A DNA stretch of 64,000 nucleotides from a bacterium. GTDB lineage: Bacteria > Calditrichota > Calditrichia > RBG-13-44-9. The stretch lies in assembly GCA_020350205.1 (NCBI GenBank), contig CP070707.1, positions 787,094-851,093 of the forward strand, in the 5' to 3' direction. Below the pieces are notes generated by a model that was not told where the DNA came from, ran no database searches, and saw only the letters and a program-made list of their open reading frames with translations. Shown piece by piece: positions 41,841 through 52,481 of this stretch (its first letter is position 1; the number at the start of each line of letters is the position of its first letter). The translations under genes and the position numbers were made by a program.

Positions 41841-42650
41841 TTAAGGAATATCCCGACGAATAAATTGCCGGAGTCCCAGATTAAAGCATATAATAATCAG
41901 AACTACCAAAACAGATAGATTTTTAAGTAAACTAATCTGATGAAACATGTGCTTTTGGGGTTGATAATAATGAAAAATATTAAGGATTTGAATCTGATCC
42001 AGAAAAGTCCAGATACTGCCCAGAAAGAAAATAAAATAAAACAAGAGAGTGATAACGGCGCTGAGAATGCCAGCTTTGCTGCCTTCATTTTCCACACTTG
42101 AGATAAGCAATGAATAGCTCATGACCAGAACAAACAGAATCCAAAGATTGACTACAATTTTCAGAAGTGGCAGGATTATATCCAGACTAAGTTTTGCTTT
42201 TAGGAAAAGCGAGATTAGGGATCCTATCAAACCGCAGAGAATAACAATGAATAACATGAGACTGATGGAAAACCACAGGGTGATAAATAAAGTTTTTCGC
42301 TGTATTGGATAGGCCAGATGCAGTTCCAGAATTCCGTTTTCCGCTTCTCCGGCTATTTGGCGACTGCTGGCCGTGATAGTCAGTAAGCCTAACAACAAAA
42401 GCACCAGAGGATGGTTGAATCCAAAAGCGGCAGCCCCGTTTATAGACAAGTAGGTCAGGAATTGTTCACTGAAGAGGACTCGCATTTGCTGGGGCAACTG
42501 ATTCAGAAATGCTTCAATAACAGGCATATAATCAAAGGAAGCAAAAATCCATACAATTAAGAATTGCATAAATCCCACAAATAATGCACTGAAAATAATT
42601 AATCCCCGGTACAACCGTAAGGTGAGTAAGAGATAATTTTTATTGAGCAT
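41841..42650 (-). CDS. ABC-2 type transporter permease
   Basis: A 269-residue inner-membrane protein with about six TM helices. The ATG at 42650 lies eight bases after AAGGA and overlaps the end of the ATPase gene by 11 bases; a further ATG at 42659 is too close to that site. The first TM is preceded by NKNYLLLTLRLYR, and an LASSRQIAGEAENGILELHLAYPIQRKT amphipathic segment is typical of NatB/YhaP-like ABC-2 permeases. It would form the channel of an exporter with the upstream ATPase; the LiaF-like protein is the third member of the operon. Confidence 0.87.
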   Translation of the reverse strand: MLNKNYLLLTLRLYRGLIIFSALFVGFMQFLIVWIFASFDYMPVIEAFLNQLPQQMRVLFSEQFLTYLSINGAAAFGFNHPLVLLLLGLLTITASSRQIAGEAENGILELHLAYPIQRKTLFITLWFSISLMLFIVILCGLIGSLISLFLKAKLSLDIILPLLKIVVNLWILFVLVMSYSLLISSVENEGSKAGILSAVITLLFYFIFFLGSIWTFLDQIQILNIFHYYQPQKHMFHQISLLKNLSVLVVLIIICFNLGLRQFIRRDIP

Positions 42651-43530
42651 TTTTTTCATCCTTATAGTATACCAGAAATACTTCCTCCAGAGTAGGTTCA
42701 GGAAAAATGATATCAGCCAGAGGCAGTGTAGTCAGATGTTCCAATAGCCCGCTTAGGTCTCCAGTGAGGAGAAATTCATATTGTAATCCCGCTTGATTAA
42801 TGAGCTGAGCTTCGGGGAGGCGGAACGGTTCAATAACATGTTTCAGCCTCAATATGAGACGGCGGAATCTTTTCTTTTTAAGATTTTCCAGGTGTTCCAG
42901 TGCCACTAATTCTCCCTGCCGAATAATCGCGATGCGGTCGCAAACCTTTTCCACTTCCGGTAAATTGTGAGATGAGAAAAAGATAGTTTTTCCCTTACTT
43001 TGGTATTCCCGTAAAAACTGGTAAAACTCATCCCTGATGAGCGGGTCAAGTCCGGTAGTGGGTTCATCCAGAATCACCAGGTCCGGTTCATGAAAGAAGG
43101 TTTGTAAAATACCGAGCTTTTGACGAGTTCCATGTGATAACTGTTTTATTTTTTGGGAGAGAGAATTCTGAAAACCAAATCTTTCTGCCAGATCCGTGAT
43201 TTTAGATAGCGGGCATTTTCTTAAACTTGCTGCATATGCCAGAAAATCTTCCGCTGTCATGTGGCTATATGCCGAAAAATCACCGGGTAAATAACCACAT
43301 TTTTGCCTGATACTATAGGAATGAGACTTAATATTTTGATCGAAAATAAAAACATTTCCTGATGTTGGATGTAACAAATGAAGTAGTAAACGAATCGTAG
43401 TTGTTTTTCCCGCTCCGTTTGGTCCTAAGAACCCGAAAATTTCACCGCGCTCTACTGTGAAGCTGATTTTGTTGATTCCGCAAATTTGCCCGTAGAATTT
43501 AGATAGATTTTCAACGTTTATGATCGAAAT
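42640..43530 (-). CDS. ABC transporter ATP-binding protein (ABC-2 exporter; likely ATT start)
   Basis: About 296 residues with Walker A GPNGAGKTTT, signature LSHGTRQKLG, Walker B LVILDEPTTGLDP and the H-loop in SSHNLPEVEKVCDRI, followed by a C-terminal extension common in exporter ATPases. Start choice is unusual. The only ordinary start codon upstream is a GTG at 43578, inside the preceding gene and with no ribosome binding site. AGGAG (43539-43543) immediately after the upstream stop sits eight bases before an ATT at 43530, which would give M-S-I-I-N-V-E-N-L-S-K-F-Y-G, the normal beginning of this family. It would energise export through the downstream permease. Confidence 0.85.
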   Translation of the reverse strand: MSIINVENLSKFYGQICGINKISFTVERGEIFGFLGPNGAGKTTTIRLLLHLLHPTSGNVFIFDQNIKSHSYSIRQKCGYLPGDFSAYSHMTAEDFLAYAASLRKCPLSKITDLAERFGFQNSLSQKIKQLSHGTRQKLGILQTFFHEPDLVILDEPTTGLDPLIRDEFYQFLREYQSKGKTIFFSSHNLPEVEKVCDRIAIIRQGELVALEHLENLKKKRFRRLILRLKHVIEPFRLPEAQLINQAGLQYEFLLTGDLSGLLEHLTTLPLADIIFPEPTLEEVFLVYYKDEKNAQ

Positions 43531-43543
43531 GGCGGTTTCTCCT

Positions 43544-44191
43544 CTAAGACTGTGTGGGATGAGTAATGCGGATGTCACCGAATATGATGGATATTTCTAA
43601 ACTGACTGTTGATTTTACCTTATCTTTGTCTGGAGAAAGATAAGTAATCTTTTTGAATAGTCCGCTGTGATATTCTTCAAAAATTCGTGAACTACCTCCG
43701 ATGTAGTTGAGCTGAACCTCCGTATAAATATTAGTTGGTAGTACAATATTGACATCACCAAAAACGCCATTTATACCTATGCGTGAATAATTCTGAAATG
43801 CTGCCTGTGAAAAATTAAGTTCGATATCTCCAAATATATTGCTGGTTTTAAAGGATTCGATAACCTGTTTGTCAAAATTTAGCCGGACATCACCAAAAAT
43901 ATTTTCTACAGATTTCTTAGAAGGCGGGATTGAAGTTCCCTTTCCTATATTATTGGATAAATTCTCGTCAGGATCCAATTGTTTTACCCCGAACAGACGA
44001 TATTCATTTTCGGTTGTTCCTCGCCGGTTCCATAAAATGCGCAGTCCAATGAAAATTAAGATGAGGGGCCAGTACCTGGACATCAATTCACCCAAATCGA
44101 CATAACCGGAATTTCGAAGTAAAAAAATTAATCCCAGAATGATTAGCAGCAAGGGAAGGAAATAGGATTGTGAGTGATTGTCTCGGGCCAT
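43544..44191 (-). CDS. LiaF-like membrane protein (cell-wall-active antibiotic response domain)
   Basis: A 215-residue protein with two N-terminal TM helices (about 11-27 and 38-55) separated by a short loop, the LiaI/LiaF TM arrangement. A soluble domain follows with repeated IFGDV/IFGDI turns (FGDVRLNF, FGDIELNF, FGDVNIVLP, FGDIRITHP), as in the DUF2154/LiaF C-terminal domain, which forms a short stacked-strand structure. In Firmicutes LiaF restrains an envelope-stress kinase; no such kinase is adjacent here. It precedes the ABC exporter genes, ending only eight bases before the probable ATPase ribosome binding region. It is probably an accessory or sensor for that exporter. Confidence 0.78.
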   Translation of the reverse strand: MARDNHSQSYFLPLLLIILGLIFLLRNSGYVDLGELMSRYWPLILIFIGLRILWNRRGTTENEYRLFGVKQLDPDENLSNNIGKGTSIPPSKKSVENIFGDVRLNFDKQVIESFKTSNIFGDIELNFSQAAFQNYSRIGINGVFGDVNIVLPTNIYTEVQLNYIGGSSRIFEEYHSGLFKKITYLSPDKDKVKSTVSLEISIIFGDIRITHPTQS

Positions 44192-44484: not shown

Positions 44485-45861
44485 TCAGAATATAACCCGC
44501 AATCCTAAAAAGATCCTGTTTTCTGTGATCTGCTCCGCAGTTCCTCCCGGGGTATAGATATCTTCACTCAGTTTTTGCCAGGTACCATAGGTATAGGTAA
44601 CATCAAGTATGGTATTTCGGCCGATTTGAAGACCCACTCCCCCGCTATAAATGCTTTTATCCATATCCGAAGTGGCATCTTTTAGAGGTGAGGATCGGAG
44701 AGCATATCCGCCTCGTAAGGATACATTGCTGTTGGGAATCAGAATTTCTGCACCTGCGTGATAATCTAAAGTTGCCCGATAGTCCCTTCGAAAGGCCGGA
44801 TTTTCATTGAGTAGCGCCTGATAATCTGTATCCAGGGACCATGAATCCGGTTTTTCGAATCGTATCTGTCGCCAATCCTGATAGGTGCTGCCAGCATGAA
44901 GTTGTAAGTTTTGTAGCGTGAAACCGATTCCAGCATCAAAACGATAGGGCGTTTTTACCTTATATTGCCAGGTACCCGGTTCGTACTCGAAGGGATCTGT
45001 ATAACCGTCATCAAAAACCAGCACATCAGAAGAGGAGTATTCTTCAGTCACCGTGAAAGTGGATGGTAATTCAACCGCTAAACCCAGGCGGGTGATCTGA
45101 TTTAATTTAAACATCCCACCAAATTTCATGCTAAAAGCTTTATATCCTGAAAGAAGGTGTTGATCCAGTGTGTAACTATCGAAATCGCCCGGATAAACGG
45201 AGTACAGGTCCTCGCTATCTTCCTGGGTGAATAGCAATGAATATTCTTCCTTACCGCGCCAGATGTTAAATGCAACCCCTAGATCTACAGAGGGAGAAAT
45301 AGCAAGTGCACCTCCAAATGACCACTGGTGAAGTCCGCCTTCACTGGAGATTTCTTCGGTTTGATAGACATCTCGGTCAAATGCATACCAGTCGTATATA
45401 CCATTTTCATCAGCCAGCTCAAATTCCAGGCCATTACTGTTCTGATTAAAGCCACTGAAGAAAAGGTACTCATCAAAATCCCGCACATAATTATATCCGA
45501 AAGCTAATACAAAACTACCCCGGGTTGTTGGGAGGGGAACCGCCAATCCAATATTGCGGAATCGGGTAAAACTATTATCCATGTCACTCAGGTTATCCCC
45601 AAACGTTGCCGAATTGGCATAATGCAAATGAGAGAATTCAGCGGTAAATTGGTTGAACTGCAAAGATGCAAGTCCGGCGGGATTCCAGTAGATGGCAGAA
45701 TAATCGTTGGCGGAAGTGATTCCGTTACCTCCCATCGCCAGGTTTCGTGCGCCAAACCCTATTTCATTTTGACGGATTCGAACGGCATCAAAGGTCGATT
45801 GGGCATTGGTGGAGCAAATGAAAAGTATGGTGAGTAAAATGACGAATTTTAAATTGTTCAT
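44485..45861 (-). CDS. Outer membrane protein, OmpP1/FadL-like
   Basis: A 458-residue beta-barrel protein. AAGGAGG is seven bases from the ATG at 45861 and only one from an ATG at 45867, so the inner start is preferred. A signal peptide ends at STNAQS. The mature N-terminus reads GFGARNLAMGGNGITSANDYSAIYWNPAGLA, the hallmark of the OmpP1/FadL/TodX and PorV-like group whose plug begins this way. Alternating strands and a terminal Phe (GLRVIF) fit an outer-membrane barrel. These proteins move hydrophobic compounds or serve secretion. It follows the Tyr-rich lipoprotein gene by only 45 bases and shares its terminator, suggesting one operon. Confidence 0.87.
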   Translation of the reverse strand: MNNLKFVILLTILFICSTNAQSTFDAVRIRQNEIGFGARNLAMGGNGITSANDYSAIYWNPAGLASLQFNQFTAEFSHLHYANSATFGDNLSDMDNSFTRFRNIGLAVPLPTTRGSFVLAFGYNYVRDFDEYLFFSGFNQNSNGLEFELADENGIYDWYAFDRDVYQTEEISSEGGLHQWSFGGALAISPSVDLGVAFNIWRGKEEYSLLFTQEDSEDLYSVYPGDFDSYTLDQHLLSGYKAFSMKFGGMFKLNQITRLGLAVELPSTFTVTEEYSSSDVLVFDDGYTDPFEYEPGTWQYKVKTPYRFDAGIGFTLQNLQLHAGSTYQDWRQIRFEKPDSWSLDTDYQALLNENPAFRRDYRATLDYHAGAEILIPNSNVSLRGGYALRSSPLKDATSDMDKSIYSGGVGLQIGRNTILDVTYTYGTWQKLSEDIYTPGGTAEQITENRIFLGLRVIF

Positions 45862-45906
45862 TTTCATTCCTCCTTATTATTTAAGGACTTTCATTGCAGA
45901 ATTTTA

Positions 45907-47370
45907 TTAACGACGTTTCTGGCTCGTTGTGCGGCTACTGGAACTTTTTTCCTCACTGTTTTTACTTTTACTGCTGCTATTTCGGGAGCTGTTTTGAGAT
46001 CGTGTATTAATACTTGGAGTTGAAGTTTTGCTTGATCTTTGTGTTTGAATATTCTGTTGCCTCGGTGCGGGTTGAGGTCTATTGATCGTTTGTTGTGACG
46101 ATCGCGGTTCATTCCTGCTGTAAGTTTGAGTACTCTTCTGTTTGTTAATTTGATAATTTCTGTCATATCTGTTCGGTTCCCGTTGTGATTGTATTTCCCG
46201 GGCTGAATTCGCTCTTTGGGAGCTTGATGGGTTTACCCGATAAGAATCTGTCAACTTTTTTGGCTCGGTCTGAGGTCGGGTTCTCACCTGTTGAGTTCTA
46301 ACCGGTTCCGGTCTACGATTGATTTTGATTTCCTCTGTTTGTCGGCTTTGATAAGGAGTCTTGTTCTTACTGGCGTCCCGCTGTGACTGAATTTCCCGGG
46401 TTGAGCGAGGTCTTTGAGGGGCGGTTTCCTTTACCTGGCTTTTCCTGGGTTGAACTGTTTTTTGTGTATTCTGTTCATTTGTCCTTGATCTTTGAATACG
46501 GGTCGCCGTATTGGAATTTCTGCTGCCAGTACGGGTAGGGGAATCCTCTGCCCGGTTGCCTCTCACAGGAGTTATTTCAGGTTGACGACTGGTTTGGGTT
46601 CTGCTGGTCGTGCGCACATCTTTGTTTCTGGAGGAGCTACTGTTTCGGTTATTCTCAGTGTCGGAATTCTGGGTGATCTCAGGCCTGCGGACAATCCTTC
46701 CTCCTGAATTCTCTGAATTCTGTTTATTCCCGGCGGAGGTGGATGGCGCGCGGCTCATGCCTCTGGGATCCCGTTGTGGCTGACGCCTGTCCCATTCTCG
46801 CTTCTTATAATTTTCGTGTGTAACATGACCGTAAATAGGCTGATGATAGTAAACTGGGGGATAGTATATAATGGGCACGGGATAGTAAATCGGCACCGGG
46901 TAATATACAGGATAGGTGCACCAGATATCATACCAGGCATAACCGGGATACAGAATCCGCCAATATCCTGGATAATAGTGACCCGAATACCAGGGATCAT
47001 AAGAAAAGTAGATATTGAAAGTCCAACCACTACCATAACCATAGTCATAATAATAAGGATCGATCCAGGGATATGGATCATAGCTTACATACCTAATTTG
47101 TCTCATATAGTCGTTATAACTATAGTAGGTCTTCTCAACCACATATCCGGATGGGCGGAATCGTAAGTCAGTCACGACTGTCTCATCATATAAATCCTCT
47201 TGATAATAGTAAGTTTCATCACCATCTCTATCATAATAGGTTACATCCTGGCTCATGAGATCTGAGGGTGAATATTGGCGAACTGCTCTGAAGGAGGTGT
47301 AACATCCGTTAAAAATCGGAGCGGTCATAATGATGCCTAATAAAATAAGTCTTATGTGTAAATGTTTCAT
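45907..47370 (-). CDS. Tyr/Pro-rich putative lipoprotein with basic low-complexity tail, unknown function
   Basis: A 487-residue exported protein that I do not recognise. AGGAGG before the ATG at 47370 sets the start; the frame upstream of it is not coding-like. A signal sequence ends in FNGC (Cys23), a degenerate lipobox. Residues about 45-185 are extremely rich in Tyr, with repeated YYPVPI units. The remaining 300 residues are an Arg/Ser/Gln/Asn-rich, strongly basic and presumably disordered tail, containing a repeated REIQSQR motif. Such a tail could bind polyanions, peptidoglycan or minerals, or be a structural matrix; this is speculation. It is upstream of the FadL-like gene. Confidence 0.72.
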   Translation of the reverse strand: MKHLHIRLILLGIIMTAPIFNGCYTSFRAVRQYSPSDLMSQDVTYYDRDGDETYYYQEDLYDETVVTDLRFRPSGYVVEKTYYSYNDYMRQIRYVSYDPYPWIDPYYYDYGYGSGWTFNIYFSYDPWYSGHYYPGYWRILYPGYAWYDIWCTYPVYYPVPIYYPVPIIYYPPVYYHQPIYGHVTHENYKKREWDRRQPQRDPRGMSRAPSTSAGNKQNSENSGGRIVRRPEITQNSDTENNRNSSSSRNKDVRTTSRTQTSRQPEITPVRGNRAEDSPTRTGSRNSNTATRIQRSRTNEQNTQKTVQPRKSQVKETAPQRPRSTREIQSQRDASKNKTPYQSRQTEEIKINRRPEPVRTQQVRTRPQTEPKKLTDSYRVNPSSSQRANSAREIQSQREPNRYDRNYQINKQKSTQTYSRNEPRSSQQTINRPQPAPRQQNIQTQRSSKTSTPSINTRSQNSSRNSSSKSKNSEEKSSSSRTTSQKRR

Positions 47371-47781
47371 GGCGAGCCTCCTTATATTTATGTTGGCCCA
47401 AATGCCTGTTAGATGTTCTCTGAGATTCCATACATTTAAAGTCGGGGACAGGAAGAGATAAAATGTCCAACCCCCGAGGTTTATAATATCCAGTAGTTGC
47501 ATACCCATGATCTTGTCGAAGTGGATTGAAATTTGATCACACATGTCAAGCCTCTCATTTTTTCTACCATGAAAAGAATCAAATGAAATGCCAGAAATTT
47601 ATGAGGAAGGAGTAAATAGGTTTAACCCATTATATAATAACAAGATAACTGGAGCAAATAATAGATTTGTGTCTTTGAAAAAGCTATTAACTGCAAACCT
47701 TGTTAGCAGTTCTGCCGCAAATTAAGTTATCACTTGCAAGGGATGATGATGAAACGATGGAAAAAATGGGGGTAATGTATT
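47371..47781. other. Intergenic region upstream of the Tyr-rich lipoprotein
   Basis: This 411-base gap lies between the minus-strand regulator end and the minus-strand lipoprotein start. No gene, clear terminator, sigma-54 promoter or tRNA was seen. An open frame covers its left part as an extension of the lipoprotein, but the ribosome binding site excludes it. Confidence 0.4.
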
Positions 47782-49221
47782 TTATCTCTTTATGTCATAT
47801 CGCTGTATCTTTTTTTGCAGTCCGACCCGGCTTAATCCCAGTGCTTTAGCGGTATGGGTAATATTCCAGTTATGTTCAACTAATTTTTCTTTAATAAAAA
47901 ACCGCTCAAGTGATTCCGTCAGGTCCTTAAGCGTTTGTGTGGAGTCGAGGAAGGTTGAGAGATCGGGCTGTTCTATTTTTAGGACTTCAGAGAACATCTC
48001 AGAGGTGATCAGAGTCCCCGGTTCTGCAAGGGTCATTGCACGCTGAATCTCGTTTTCCAGTTCCCGGACATTTCCGTTAAATGTGGCAGATGTTAAAATT
48101 TGGAGGGCCTGTTTCTCGATTCCCTTAACAGATTTAGATAACTTTTTTTGATATTTTTGGATGAAGTGATCGACCAGAATGGGTATGTCTTCTGTCCTTT
48201 CACGAAGTGGTGGAATTCTAATTGGAAAGACGCTGAGACGATAAAAAAGATCCTCACGGAAGGTTCCCTTCTGAACGGATTGCTGGAGATCCTTATTGGT
48301 AGCTGATATAATGCGGACATTTACCGAGATGTTTTTCTCTGAGCCTAATGGTCTGAATTCACCTTCCTGTAAAACTCGCAGTAATCTTTGCTGAAATGCG
48401 GCAGATGTGTCAGCAATTTCATCAAGTAAAATGGTTCCTCCATCGGCTAGTTCAAAAAGTCCCCTTTTCTCCTGTGATGCACCGGTAAATGCTCCTTTGG
48501 TATGGCCAAAGAGTTCGCTTTCCAGAAGGGTATCCGGCAAAGCAGCACAATTTTGAGTGACGAAAAATTTTTCCTTGCGGGGGCCATTATAATGAATTGC
48601 CCGGGCTATCAGTTCCTTGCCGGTGCCGGTTTCTCCGGTGAGGAGAACGGTTATGTCAGACGGTATGACTTTCCTTACCAGGTTAAACACATCCTGCATT
48701 GCCTTACTTTGACCAATAATATTGGTGAATGCATATTCCTTTTCGGCTTCCTGATGCAAAATAATGTTTTCCTGCTGTAACCTCAGGTTGGCCTGTTGCA
48801 ATTCACCCAAGAGTCTTCTATTTTCCTTCACCAGTGTATACTGCTCTGCTGCCCTTTTAATGATGAGACGAAGACCGTCTGGTTCCCAGGGTTTGTTGAT
48901 ATAATAATATACCTGTCCATCATTAATGGCCTGGATAATTGCTTCAATATCCATATACCCCGTAATAAGAATTCTCACCGCATCGGGTTGAATGGAAAGT
49001 GCTTTCTGGAAGAGTTCAACACCGCTTAACCCTGGCATTCGCTGATCTGCCAATATGACGGCAATCTCCTCATTTTTCAGCACCTCAAGGGCTGCCTGTC
49101 CATTCAGGGCGAGTATCACCTCAAAATCTTTTCGTAAGGTGCGTTTGATTGCGTTTAAGCTGGACTGCTCATCATCGACCACCAGAATGCTGTGTAAATT
49201 TTTACCTTTATCTGAATTGAT
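47782..49221 (-). CDS. Sigma-54-dependent response regulator, NtrC family (likely ATC start)
   Basis: About 479 residues: receiver domain with VVDDEQ and phosphoacceptor Asp in ILADQRMPG, AAA+ domain with Walker A GETGTGKE, the sigma-54 loop GAFTGA and Walker B TILLDEIAD, and a Fis-type helix-turn-helix (AKALGLSRVGLQKKI). The only ordinary start is a GTG at 49182, which would remove most of the first receiver strand and has no ribosome binding site. GAGGA at 49229-49233 is seven bases before an ATC at 49221, giving a normal N-terminus ahead of ILVVDDEQSS. The gene follows the propeller kinase by 38 bases and is almost certainly its partner. Confidence 0.85.
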   Translation of the reverse strand: MNSDKGKNLHSILVVDDEQSSLNAIKRTLRKDFEVILALNGQAALEVLKNEEIAVILADQRMPGLSGVELFQKALSIQPDAVRILITGYMDIEAIIQAINDGQVYYYINKPWEPDGLRLIIKRAAEQYTLVKENRRLLGELQQANLRLQQENIILHQEAEKEYAFTNIIGQSKAMQDVFNLVRKVIPSDITVLLTGETGTGKELIARAIHYNGPRKEKFFVTQNCAALPDTLLESELFGHTKGAFTGASQEKRGLFELADGGTILLDEIADTSAAFQQRLLRVLQEGEFRPLGSEKNISVNVRIISATNKDLQQSVQKGTFREDLFYRLSVFPIRIPPLRERTEDIPILVDHFIQKYQKKLSKSVKGIEKQALQILTSATFNGNVRELENEIQRAMTLAEPGTLITSEMFSEVLKIEQPDLSTFLDSTQTLKDLTESLERFFIKEKLVEHNWNITHTAKALGLSRVGLQKKIQRYDIKR

Positions 49222-49259: not shown

Positions 49260-52200
49260 TTAAGCATTTGTCCCCATGGGTAATTCTATTTTGAAACGGG
49301 TTCCCCGAGCTTCCTGAGAGGTAAAATCTATTTTTCCCCGGTGCTCCTGAACAATCTGATAACTTATACTCAATCCCAAACCGGTCCCTTTCCCAACCGG
49401 TTTGGTCGTAAAAAACGGGTCGAATATTTTTTTATGATAATTCTTTGGGATGCCTTTTCCGTCATCCTGAATGATAATTTCTACCGTATTTTTGAGTTTC
49501 CGGGTTTTTATCCAAATATTTCCGTTTCCTTCAATTGCCTGAATGGCATTTAGTAACAGATTCATGAATACCTGATTCAAATTACCAGGACGACAATAAA
49601 TTTTTGGTAAAACTCCATATTCTTTATGAATAGTAATGCGGTTTTTGATTTCATTATTGAGCAGAAGAAGGGTTGAATCAAGTCCTTCATGCAGATCCGC
49701 AAGTTTTGATTCAGCTTCATCCAGACGAGAGAAATTCCGGAGGTTGAGAACCACATTCTTGACCCGCTGACTGCCTTCCACACTTTCGTTGATCAGCGAT
49801 TGAATATCAGATTGAATGAATTCGAAATCATAACGGGTACGTAAAGCGTCGATAGCTCTGTGGAGCTCTGACTCCTGATCGGGAGGATTCTGAAATAGAG
49901 ATAGCAAGTCGGTTATGGCAGAAATATATGCATCGAGTTCCTTCATATTAGCATAGATGTAGCTAATGGGATTGTTTAATTCATGGGCCACCCCTGCAAC
50001 CAGCTGACCCAGGCCGGCCATTTTTTCGCTTTGAACTAATTGTGCCTGGGTATTTTTTAGGTCTTTGTATAGCTGTTGTAATTTTTTATTATTTTGGGTC
50101 AGTTTTTGATTAGCCTTTTCCAGTTTTGCAACATATTTTTGCCGGGTTTTAGATTCGGTCACTTCTTTGATGAGAATTTTGGTCTCCTCAATATACTGAT
50201 TGTTCTCCATAGCGATGGCAGTCTGTGTGGTCAGGCTTTCAAAAACTGCCCGGTCCTCCGCCGTAAAATCCTTTTTTAAATAAGGTTGACTTACTATCAA
50301 TAATCCAAATAAACGTTCGTTTCGAAAAATGGGAAACTGATACCCATCCTTTACCTCTGATTTAAGCAGTGGTTCACTACCGGAGCTAATTATTTTTACC
50401 TCCACTGCTTCGGATAAAGGAATTTTCTGAGGTCCGTTAAAGTTACCCCTGCTATGTTCTTTCCTGAGATTTCGATCAAATTTTCGGTAGATGGCACAAT
50501 ATTCCGGTTTTATGGAATCCTGAATAATATTAACCAGTCCTTCCAAAAGTGCGTCATTGTTTTTGATCAGGATGAGTTCATGGGAAAAGTCTTGCAACAA
50601 TTTGCGGTAATGTACTCTGTTTTTCTCAAGTTTTCGAATTTTTTCAAGAAAAAAAGTGAGTGAAAGCAGCAAACCATAAACAATAATGATTTGATAAAGC
50701 AGGCGAGTTTGAATGGAGGCGGTTCGTAAGGCGATAAAGATACCGTAAAGTAGTAAAATCGTGATGGAAAAAAATATTAGAATATGATGGTTCGCCCAGA
50801 GATATCTGTGAGTGGAGTAGAAAACATAGGCCATAATTGTGGAAATAAGCAAAATAAATAAAAGTAGATTCCCCATGAAATCAGGTTCACCCACGGCACG
50901 ATATAAATATTGATAACTTCGAATAAGATAGCTGAGGACAACCGGTTTTTCAGAGATCTGATAGCGCTGACCTGAAACAAGGTTCTCAAGCAAAAGCTCT
51001 CTGCCATTTGGGAATCTCAAGCGGGCATGGAAGGTTCCTTTATCCTTAATTCCAAAATGAACAATTGGGCTGTTTTGAGAGAGATAACCACTTCCTCCGC
51101 AAATTTCCTGGTAACCCAGAAGCCGGGAGGTGTTGGTTTTCATGGGACCCGAATAGAGCCAGATTTTTGTGCCGATGGCATCGCGATTCGATTGAACCCC
51201 GGTTACCTCAAATTGAATAAAATTTTGATTGTTGGTTTGGTTGATGTAAAGGATACTGTTGGTGTCTTTGTTAGAAATAAATAGATCTATATCCCCGTCT
51301 TTGTCAAAATCCGCGCCTGCGCCACCGGTACTGTAATGTTGATTAGAAGTATCCACATCAGGTATGACCCGGGTATACTCGATGATACCGTCAAAATTTT
51401 GAGCCAGAAATAACATATTGGGTCCGATATTTGAAATCCAGATGTCAATGGTGCCGTTGTTATCAAAGTCTCCCATAACACTTCCATAGGCGGGATAGGG
51501 ATTATTGATCCCCACGCTGTGGGTTATATCTGTAAATTGCCAGTCATCACCAGCTGAGTGAATATCATTGCGATACAGTGCTGATTGCCCGTGACGATCT
51601 GTCACCAGCAGATCTAAATCACCATCCATATCAAAGTCAGAAAAGGTTGCCCCGTTGCTGTTGAAATTTTGTTCTAGATGCTTTATCGGAAGAGTTACTT
51701 TCTCAAAACGATTCCTACCGGTATTGCGATAAAATTGATCCGGGACAAACCAGTTGCATACATACAGATCACAAAATCCATCTCCGTCCACATCAGCAAA
51801 TGCGGCTCCCTGACTGGTATAGGAATCTGAAATCCCCCAACTTACACTGACATCCTCGAAATGACCCCGGCCGTCACCCAGCAATAAACGGTTGGGATGA
51901 TGTTCATCGGTTATAAACATATCCAGGTTTCCGTCAAGGTTGACATCAGCACAAAAGGTCCCATTGGCATCCAGTGGAGGTTGGATATCAGCATCCCGGG
52001 TGATATCACGGAAACGGCCATCTGGTTGTTGCCGGAAGAGACGGGTCGTTTCACCCCACCCGGAAATTATCACATCTACCAGGCCATCATTGTTAATGTC
52101 GGCTGCAGTGGCACCCAGTTCCAGATTTTCAAATCTGCGGGGCATCAAATTTCCCCCCAGTCCAGCCTGAATAGTGCCATCTTGAAATGGTTGATCCCTG

Positions 52201-52481
52201 CCGGGATTTATAAAAAGTCGGTTTAAATTCCGAAACCTCACGATATAGATATCCGGCCAGGTATCATTGTTGAGATCGCGAAATACCACGCCATAACTAT
52301 CTTCAAAATCTGGAAGAAGGTGGGAAGATTCGCGGAAAAGAAAATTTGGAATAGTATCTGGGTAAATTGATCCGGGTAACCCGATATGAGCTAACCATAA
52401 AATAAAAATATAGTTAATAGGAAAGAGAAATTTTTGACTTGAATGAAAAAATTGAGGACTGATTGCTTTAGGTTTCATCAT
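49260..52481 (-). CDS. Sensor histidine kinase with FG-GAP/VCBS propeller and ASPIC/UnbV ectodomain
   Basis: A 1073-residue protein of unusual design. After an N-terminal hydrophobic segment (about 19-40) there are seven Ca-binding-like DxDxDG-type motifs at about 69, 128, 179, 230, 282, 338 and 391 (for example DVDGDGFCD and DFDKDGDID), implying a seven-bladed FG-GAP/VCBS propeller. An ASPIC/UnbV domain follows (about 423-511: NRDAIGTKIWL, GGSGYLSQNSPIVHFGI, RFPNGREL). Three TM helices lie at about 537-612, then a GAF domain (640-760), coiled coil, and kinase core with H-box VAHELNNP (His833), N-box and G-boxes (DDGKGIP, GKGTGLGLSIS). The NtrC-type regulator follows directly. The ectodomain resembles CRTAC1-like binding proteins; the ligand is unknown. 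Confidence 0.9.
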   Translation of the reverse strand: MMKPKAISPQFFHSSQKFLFPINYIFILWLAHIGLPGSIYPDTIPNFLFRESSHLLPDFEDSYGVVFRDLNNDTWPDIYIVRFRNLNRLFINPGRDQPFQDGTIQAGLGGNLMPRRFENLELGATAADINNDGLVDVIISGWGETTRLFRQQPDGRFRDITRDADIQPPLDANGTFCADVNLDGNLDMFITDEHHPNRLLLGDGRGHFEDVSVSWGISDSYTSQGAAFADVDGDGFCDLYVCNWFVPDQFYRNTGRNRFEKVTLPIKHLEQNFNSNGATFSDFDMDGDLDLLVTDRHGQSALYRNDIHSAGDDWQFTDITHSVGINNPYPAYGSVMGDFDNNGTIDIWISNIGPNMLFLAQNFDGIIEYTRVIPDVDTSNQHYSTGGAGADFDKDGDIDLFISNKDTNSILYINQTNNQNFIQFEVTGVQSNRDAIGTKIWLYSGPMKTNTSRLLGYQEICGGSGYLSQNSPIVHFGIKDKGTFHARLRFPNGRELLLENLVSGQRYQISEKPVVLSYLIRSYQYLYRAVGEPDFMGNLLLFILLISTIMAYVFYSTHRYLWANHHILIFFSITILLLYGIFIALRTASIQTRLLYQIIIVYGLLLSLTFFLEKIRKLEKNRVHYRKLLQDFSHELILIKNNDALLEGLVNIIQDSIKPEYCAIYRKFDRNLRKEHSRGNFNGPQKIPLSEAVEVKIISSGSEPLLKSEVKDGYQFPIFRNERLFGLLIVSQPYLKKDFTAEDRAVFESLTTQTAIAMENNQYIEETKILIKEVTESKTRQKYVAKLEKANQKLTQNNKKLQQLYKDLKNTQAQLVQSEKMAGLGQLVAGVAHELNNPISYIYANMKELDAYISAITDLLSLFQNPPDQESELHRAIDALRTRYDFEFIQSDIQSLINESVEGSQRVKNVVLNLRNFSRLDEAESKLADLHEGLDSTLLLLNNEIKNRITIHKEYGVLPKIYCRPGNLNQVFMNLLLNAIQAIEGNGNIWIKTRKLKNTVEIIIQDDGKGIPKNYHKKIFDPFFTTKPVGKGTGLGLSISYQIVQEHRGKIDFTSQEARGTRFKIELPMGTNA

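Follow-up and report, generated by a model that had tools for sequence, protein, structure and literature searches.

A CRTAC1-like propeller-UnbV sensor kinase with a predicted sigma-54 circuit for a lipoprotein-outer-membrane protein pair

The window, that is, the whole stretch of 64,000 nucleotides analysed here, is likely to encode a dedicated envelope two-component system, in which a CRTAC1-like periplasmic sensor kinase would direct the sigma-54-dependent expression of one lipoprotein-outer-membrane protein (OMP) pair. The architecture of the kinase, the fold of its ectodomain and the order of the genes were all computed, as were a promoter and a palindrome, both conserved, that accompany the lipoprotein gene. 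The elements of the system, all on the minus strand, are the following.

49260-52481, minus strand: sensor histidine kinase (HK), 1073 aa, a single unbroken ORF
N-terminal half of the kinase: signal sequence about 1-40; seven-repeat FG-GAP propeller about 48-430; UnbV/ASPIC domain 435-507; three transmembrane (TM) helices about 535-612
C-terminal half of the kinase: GAF about 640-760; coiled coil; DHp with the phospho-acceptor His in VAHELNNP; ATPase 967-1069
47782-49182, minus strand: NtrC-family response regulator (RR), 466 aa, GTG start as listed; receiver, sigma-54 AAA+ and Fis HTH domains (Pfam)
47692-47708, minus strand: predicted activator-binding palindrome TGCTAACAAGGTTTGCA, family consensus TGYNAACNNNGTTNRCA, from a de novo palindrome scan and a class-wide test
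47578-47593, minus strand: predicted sigma-54 -24/-12 element TGGCATTTCATTTGAT, strict pattern
45907-47370, minus strand: 'CYT' lipoprotein, about 487 aa from the ATG at 47370, recognised by its signal peptide and CYT; Tyr-rich N-terminal half and basic Ser/Arg/Asn/Gln-rich tail
44485-45867, minus strand: FadL/PorV/BamG-like outer-membrane beta-barrel, 460 aa; Toluene_X (Pfam), BamG and PorV_fam under cut-off (NCBIfam), PorV and TbuX (PDB profile search)

A reading of the same DNA from its sequence only had placed an UnbV/ASPIC segment, three TM helices, a GAF domain and a kinase core in one ORF, and the Pfam, TM and ortholog data confirm this arrangement. In the kinase ORF, Pfam detects FG-GAP_3 in six stretches (E 5e-34), UnbV_ASPIC at 435-507 (E 7e-11) and HATPase_c (E 1e-26), all over their cut-offs. 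HisKA and GAF stay under the Pfam cut-off when the full protein is scanned; scanned alone, the GAF region of the window kinase scores over the GAF cut-off, and GAF_2 is matched by 27 of the 30 members of the ortholog alignment. The seven evenly spaced DxDxDG motifs announced in that reading are borne out: these Ca-loops start at residues 69, 128, 179, 230, 282, 338 and 391, with a spacing of 51-59 residues, and the Asp residues in them hardly vary across 91 distant homologs. Any Ca2+ bound in these loops would probably be structural. Nearly all orthologs have the three TM helices C-terminal to the UnbV domain, and the HELNNP H-box and the ATPase motifs are invariant or nearly so among 31 sequences. 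Tandem DNA repeats were looked for beneath the propeller coding region and none was found. Besides the kinase, no UnbV/ASPIC protein was found in the own genome of 4.06 Mb.

The ectodomain (residues 45-520, positions 50922-52349, minus strand) was modelled with AlphaFold2 from window and related-locus sequences only, giving a pTM of 0.86 and a mean pLDDT of 80. The best PDB match of the model in Foldseek is murine CRTAC1 (cartilage acidic protein 1; 9etn; E 7.9e-26, TMq 0.77), followed by a KICSTOR subunit, integrin alpha and BT4663, the best of which (7e-9) is about 17 orders of magnitude weaker. CRTAC1 is also the only solved structure matched by the ectodomain in sequence searches. The propeller proposed earlier is thus recovered as part of a propeller-UnbV core fold, and, as modelled, the ectodomain is the same propeller-plus-UnbV module as in the mammalian cartilage protein. 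Both have a seven-bladed FG-GAP propeller packed against the UnbV/ASPIC domain, whereas the mammalian CRTAC1 is secreted and has neither TM helices nor kinase, and the identity in the structural alignment is 20%. To our knowledge, the ligands of CRTAC1 and of bacterial UnbV/ASPIC proteins are poorly understood, although the structure of CRTAC1 has been solved. For an inner-membrane kinase that begins with a signal sequence, a periplasmic ectodomain is expected; the sensor is therefore less likely to read an external matrix directly than to respond to something within the periplasm.

The class sample comprised 40 genomes including that of the window, and the phylum sample was the same 40 genomes; ortholog counts refer to the 39 other class genomes, and the out-group survey to 345 genomes from other phyla. 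Full-length one-ORF orthologs of the kinase, with 34-58% identity, are present in 30 of the 39 genomes, together with further pieces at contig ends. An assembly or frameshift error that merged two separate proteins is vanishingly unlikely, as nothing counts for it and the 30 orthologs, each in one ORF without internal stops, come from separate genomes and refute it; the fusion is genuine. A search for the domain combination across genomes, as had been suggested, shows it to be recurrent in the class and nearly absent outside. In the 345 genomes of other phyla, nearly all matches to the UnbV-TM region are confined to UnbV. Four longer proteins were opened: three look secreted, with sorting or FlgD-type C-terminal domains (two also carry peptidase domains), and the fourth, L146, joins the propeller, the UnbV domain and the TM region to an AAA+ activator of sigma-54 that carries a Fis HTH. 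This last protein (L146:1861-6207, minus strand, genome G320) comprises 1449 aa, carries extra repeats in addition to its FG-GAP/UnbV ectodomain, and is apparently a membrane-bound one-component sigma-54 activator.

Among 62 distant loci, none of the 96 ORFs matching the ectodomain profile also matches the kinase profile, and the profile search of genome contigs yielded, apart from a few unrelated kinases, secreted homologs only, all of them distant. Outside the class group, the ectodomain is thus found almost only without a kinase. The secreted FG-GAP/ASPIC proteins of Bacteroidota (about 1100 aa) align with the ectodomain over about 95% of its length at 26-31% identity; they differ from the window kinase in this same lack of a kinase match (0/96). 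Within the class, paralogs of about 1170-1310 aa combine the same module with a kinase, in some cases adding Ycf48-like repeats; a sigma-54 regulator adjoins every propeller kinase paralog whose neighbour was examined. With these neighbours and the L146 fusion, the propeller-UnbV module emerges as a sensor that recurs in connection with sigma-54. Judged from sequence, the propeller-UnbV kinase architecture is a conserved and recurrent class of putative receptors in the lineage, a point missed in the earlier reading.

In 26 of the 30 ortholog loci, the regulator gene is next to that of the kinase, and the order HK, NtrC-type regulator, 'CYT' lipoprotein, FadL/PorV/BamG-like OMP is kept across families, which answers the check on conserved neighbours proposed earlier. 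The OMP is present in 17 of the 30 loci, many of the remaining ones stopping at a contig break. The claim that the kinase sits beside its own NtrC regulator holds, the protein at 47782-49182 having the receiver-AAA(sigma-54)-Fis layout, and so does the wider claim of a CRTAC1-type propeller and UnbV pairing on a real kinase with such a partner. Among function-named models, the kinase core lies near AtoS and ZraS and the regulator is nearest to AtoC; as in NtrC-type sigma-54 systems, a sigma-54 promoter comes with an upstream palindrome. In contrast to AtoS-AtoC and ZraS-ZraR, the sensor domain is unrelated and the target is a lipoprotein-OMP pair, and all scores stay below the equivalog cut-offs.

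The lipoprotein ORF is listed at 45907-47544; its true start is very probably the later ATG at 47370, which is preceded by a good Shine-Dalgarno sequence and is the first codon of the signal peptide. Upstream of this ATG, at 47371-47544 (minus strand) and also in L084 and L085, the frame continues for about 60-90 codons with some interspecies similarity. In the own genus, this extension is part of a leader of unusual length that follows the sigma-54 element, and a leader peptide or an alternative start is possible. In every complete copy of the lipoprotein, the signal peptide ends in CYT, and the protein includes a Tyr-rich part and a basic tail rich in Ser and Arg; sequence similarity is low, and no Pfam family was matched. 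Two further paralogs of the OMP are encoded in the own genome (G000:C1:1735956-1737281 and 670394-671728; L172, L173), one of them with its own CYTQ lipoprotein and without a sigma-54 element, and a wider family of CYT-lipoprotein/OMP pairs exists.

The strict sigma-54 pattern, TGG[CT][AG][CT]N5TTG, precedes the lipoprotein gene in 18 of 19 linked loci, as against 7 of 288 other upstream regions; elements upstream of the HK, RR and OMP starts occur at background level only. The element lies 46-74 bp from the lipoprotein start, except in the own genus, where the distance to the predicted start is unusually large at 223-248 bp; in G008 it carries one mismatch. The own genome contains rpoN. A de novo scan of all 5+5 palindromes, made with no prior input, found TGTAAACNNNGTTTACA in 9 loci, the maximum in shuffled sequences being 4-6. 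The palindrome reaches a density of 3.5/kb in the target regions compared with 0.09/kb overall, and in many loci the distance from it to the sigma-54 element downstream is about 100-116 bp. In the own genus, its two half-sites change together (TGCTAAC/GTTAGCA in L084), and some loci (L085, L103) have no palindrome at the threshold used. Because of the conserved sigma-54 promoter and activator sites, the lipoprotein and the OMP look like the conserved target of the system and not like incidental neighbours, which had also escaped the sequence-only reading.

The combined sigma-54/palindrome pattern has a single match in the own genome, at the window site; with a looser palindrome, two matches are obtained against one control match. 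In the 40 genomes it gives 21 matches against 5 in the control, 14 of them upstream of CYT lipoproteins. This pattern was derived from the linked loci, and only the unlinked loci, the OMP-profile test and the HK-less-genome test are independent of it. In five genomes belonging to two genera only (G010, G015, G017, G029, G033), the sites accompany the lipoprotein away from the HK locus, and the OMP follows the lipoprotein or shares its contig; in G017 the pair lies about 255 kb from the HK on a single contig, counted across the contig ends. G013 and G014 were set aside as unlinked cases, the site lying near a contig end behind a possible regulator gene end; contig breaks have probably interrupted what are linked loci. 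When OMP loci were collected by protein profile, blind to the promoter, the element was present in 8 of 9 further orthologous loci and in none of 5 paralogous lipoprotein-OMP pairs. The ninth orthologous locus (G018) has the pair without the element, and no HK ortholog is seen in that genome; G019 and G028, the 2 of the 40 class genomes without the OMP, likewise show no HK ortholog, two of these three genomes being less than 90% complete. The unlinked, promoter-blind and HK-less results therefore indicate that the sites travel with the target gene, and not with the position beside the kinase.

In the mechanism that we propose, the kinase would hold its seven-bladed FG-GAP propeller and UnbV domain in the periplasm, and a change in this ectodomain would be transmitted through the three TM helices to the GAF domain and coiled coil and then to the kinase, which would phosphorylate the adjacent NtrC-type regulator. 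The regulator, as the presumed binder of the consensus palindrome, would then activate sigma-54 polymerase at the -24/-12 promoter, the predicted direction of control being positive. From this promoter, one operon would be expressed, comprising the Tyr-rich 'CYT' lipoprotein and the FadL/PorV/BamG-like OMP. The pairing of palindrome and regulator is predicted, and the own genome may hold other sigma-54 activators.

As the signal we would first suspect the state of the lipoprotein/OMP or of another envelope component. The kinase could monitor the lipoprotein and OMP, or envelope assembly, in a feedback, with the OMP as a BamG-like assembly factor having a lipoprotein partner, a plausible reading that we hold with less than even confidence. 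It is in agreement with the class-wide conservation of one sensor with one dedicated target pair, and with the match of all 17 OMP members to the BamG model, under its cut-off, and of 16 of the 17 to PorV_fam. In Flavobacterium, BamG anchors surface lipoproteins on BAM (PMC12611786), which makes an assembly role of the OMP a lead and not a result. The window OMP scores 68 bits against BamG (NCBIfam NF053685), however, far under the curated cut-off of 250, and the counterpart of the 'CYT' lipoprotein among BAM lipoproteins is putative.

Rather unlikely in our view is that the sensor reads a glycan, lipid or Ca2+ of extracellular origin, as HTCS and integrin-type binders do, the lipoprotein-OMP pair being its uptake system. 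The conserved Ca-loops of the FG-GAP repeats and the resemblance of the OMP to FadL and TbuX, a family of hydrophobic-substrate channels, would suit such a role, and Foldseek also gives integrin alpha and the heparin-sensing periplasmic domain of BT4663, much more weakly; but genes for degradation or inner-membrane transport are not conserved in the operon, and the presence of OMP homologs in 38 of 40 class genomes better fits a housekeeping envelope role than a variable nutrient. It is still less probable that sensing falls to the GAF domain, the propeller-UnbV half being structural, without sensory role: the GAF domain is real, but conservation is higher in the ectodomain than in the GAF region (means of 0.62 and 0.41), and the ectodomain recurs with other outputs. 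Returning to the feedback, a bolder and doubtful extension is that CRTAC1-type modules are recurrent bacterial periplasmic receptors wired to sigma-54 activators, and that the present member, as an envelope sensor of the whole class, senses the state of a lipoprotein-OMP complex, possibly BAM-accessory-like, by direct protein contact and adjusts the expression of that complex.

Periplasmic propellers are already known in two-component sensors, BT4663 combining two Reg_prop propellers, a Y_Y_Y domain and a fused regulator. The window kinase resembles this hybrid two-component protein (PDB 4a2m) in carrying a periplasmic propeller sensor on a histidine kinase, with a weak fold match, and differs from it by its one FG-GAP propeller with UnbV, its GAF domain, its three TM helices and its separate sigma-54 regulator. 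As Pfam matched neither Reg_prop nor Y_Y_Y in the kinase and the regulator is separate, the system falls outside the HTCS definition. No description of an FG-GAP, ASPIC, UnbV or VCBS combination with a histidine kinase was found in the open literature searched, most subscription journals and preprints being outside its coverage, in line with the earlier impression that the fused arrangement was undescribed; nor did that literature yield a sigma-54 circuit headed by a propeller-UnbV sensor of the CRTAC1 type. The CRTAC1-type module is here tied to a readable output, which makes its ligand searchable by a promoter reporter, and the predicted circuit is complete, with sensor, regulator, operator, promoter and target, in a poorly studied lineage. 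It also offers a starting point for the study of a lipoprotein-OMP pair that occurs across the lineage.

Further genes accompany the locus in part of the class. In one family (L097, L099, L100, L102, L103, L108, L110, L112), a small HAD-like protein of about 156 aa is encoded between the regulator and the lipoprotein promoter. Downstream of the OMP, the window encodes a LiaF-like protein and an ABC transporter ATPase (42640-44191, minus strand), a neighbourhood common to the own genus only.
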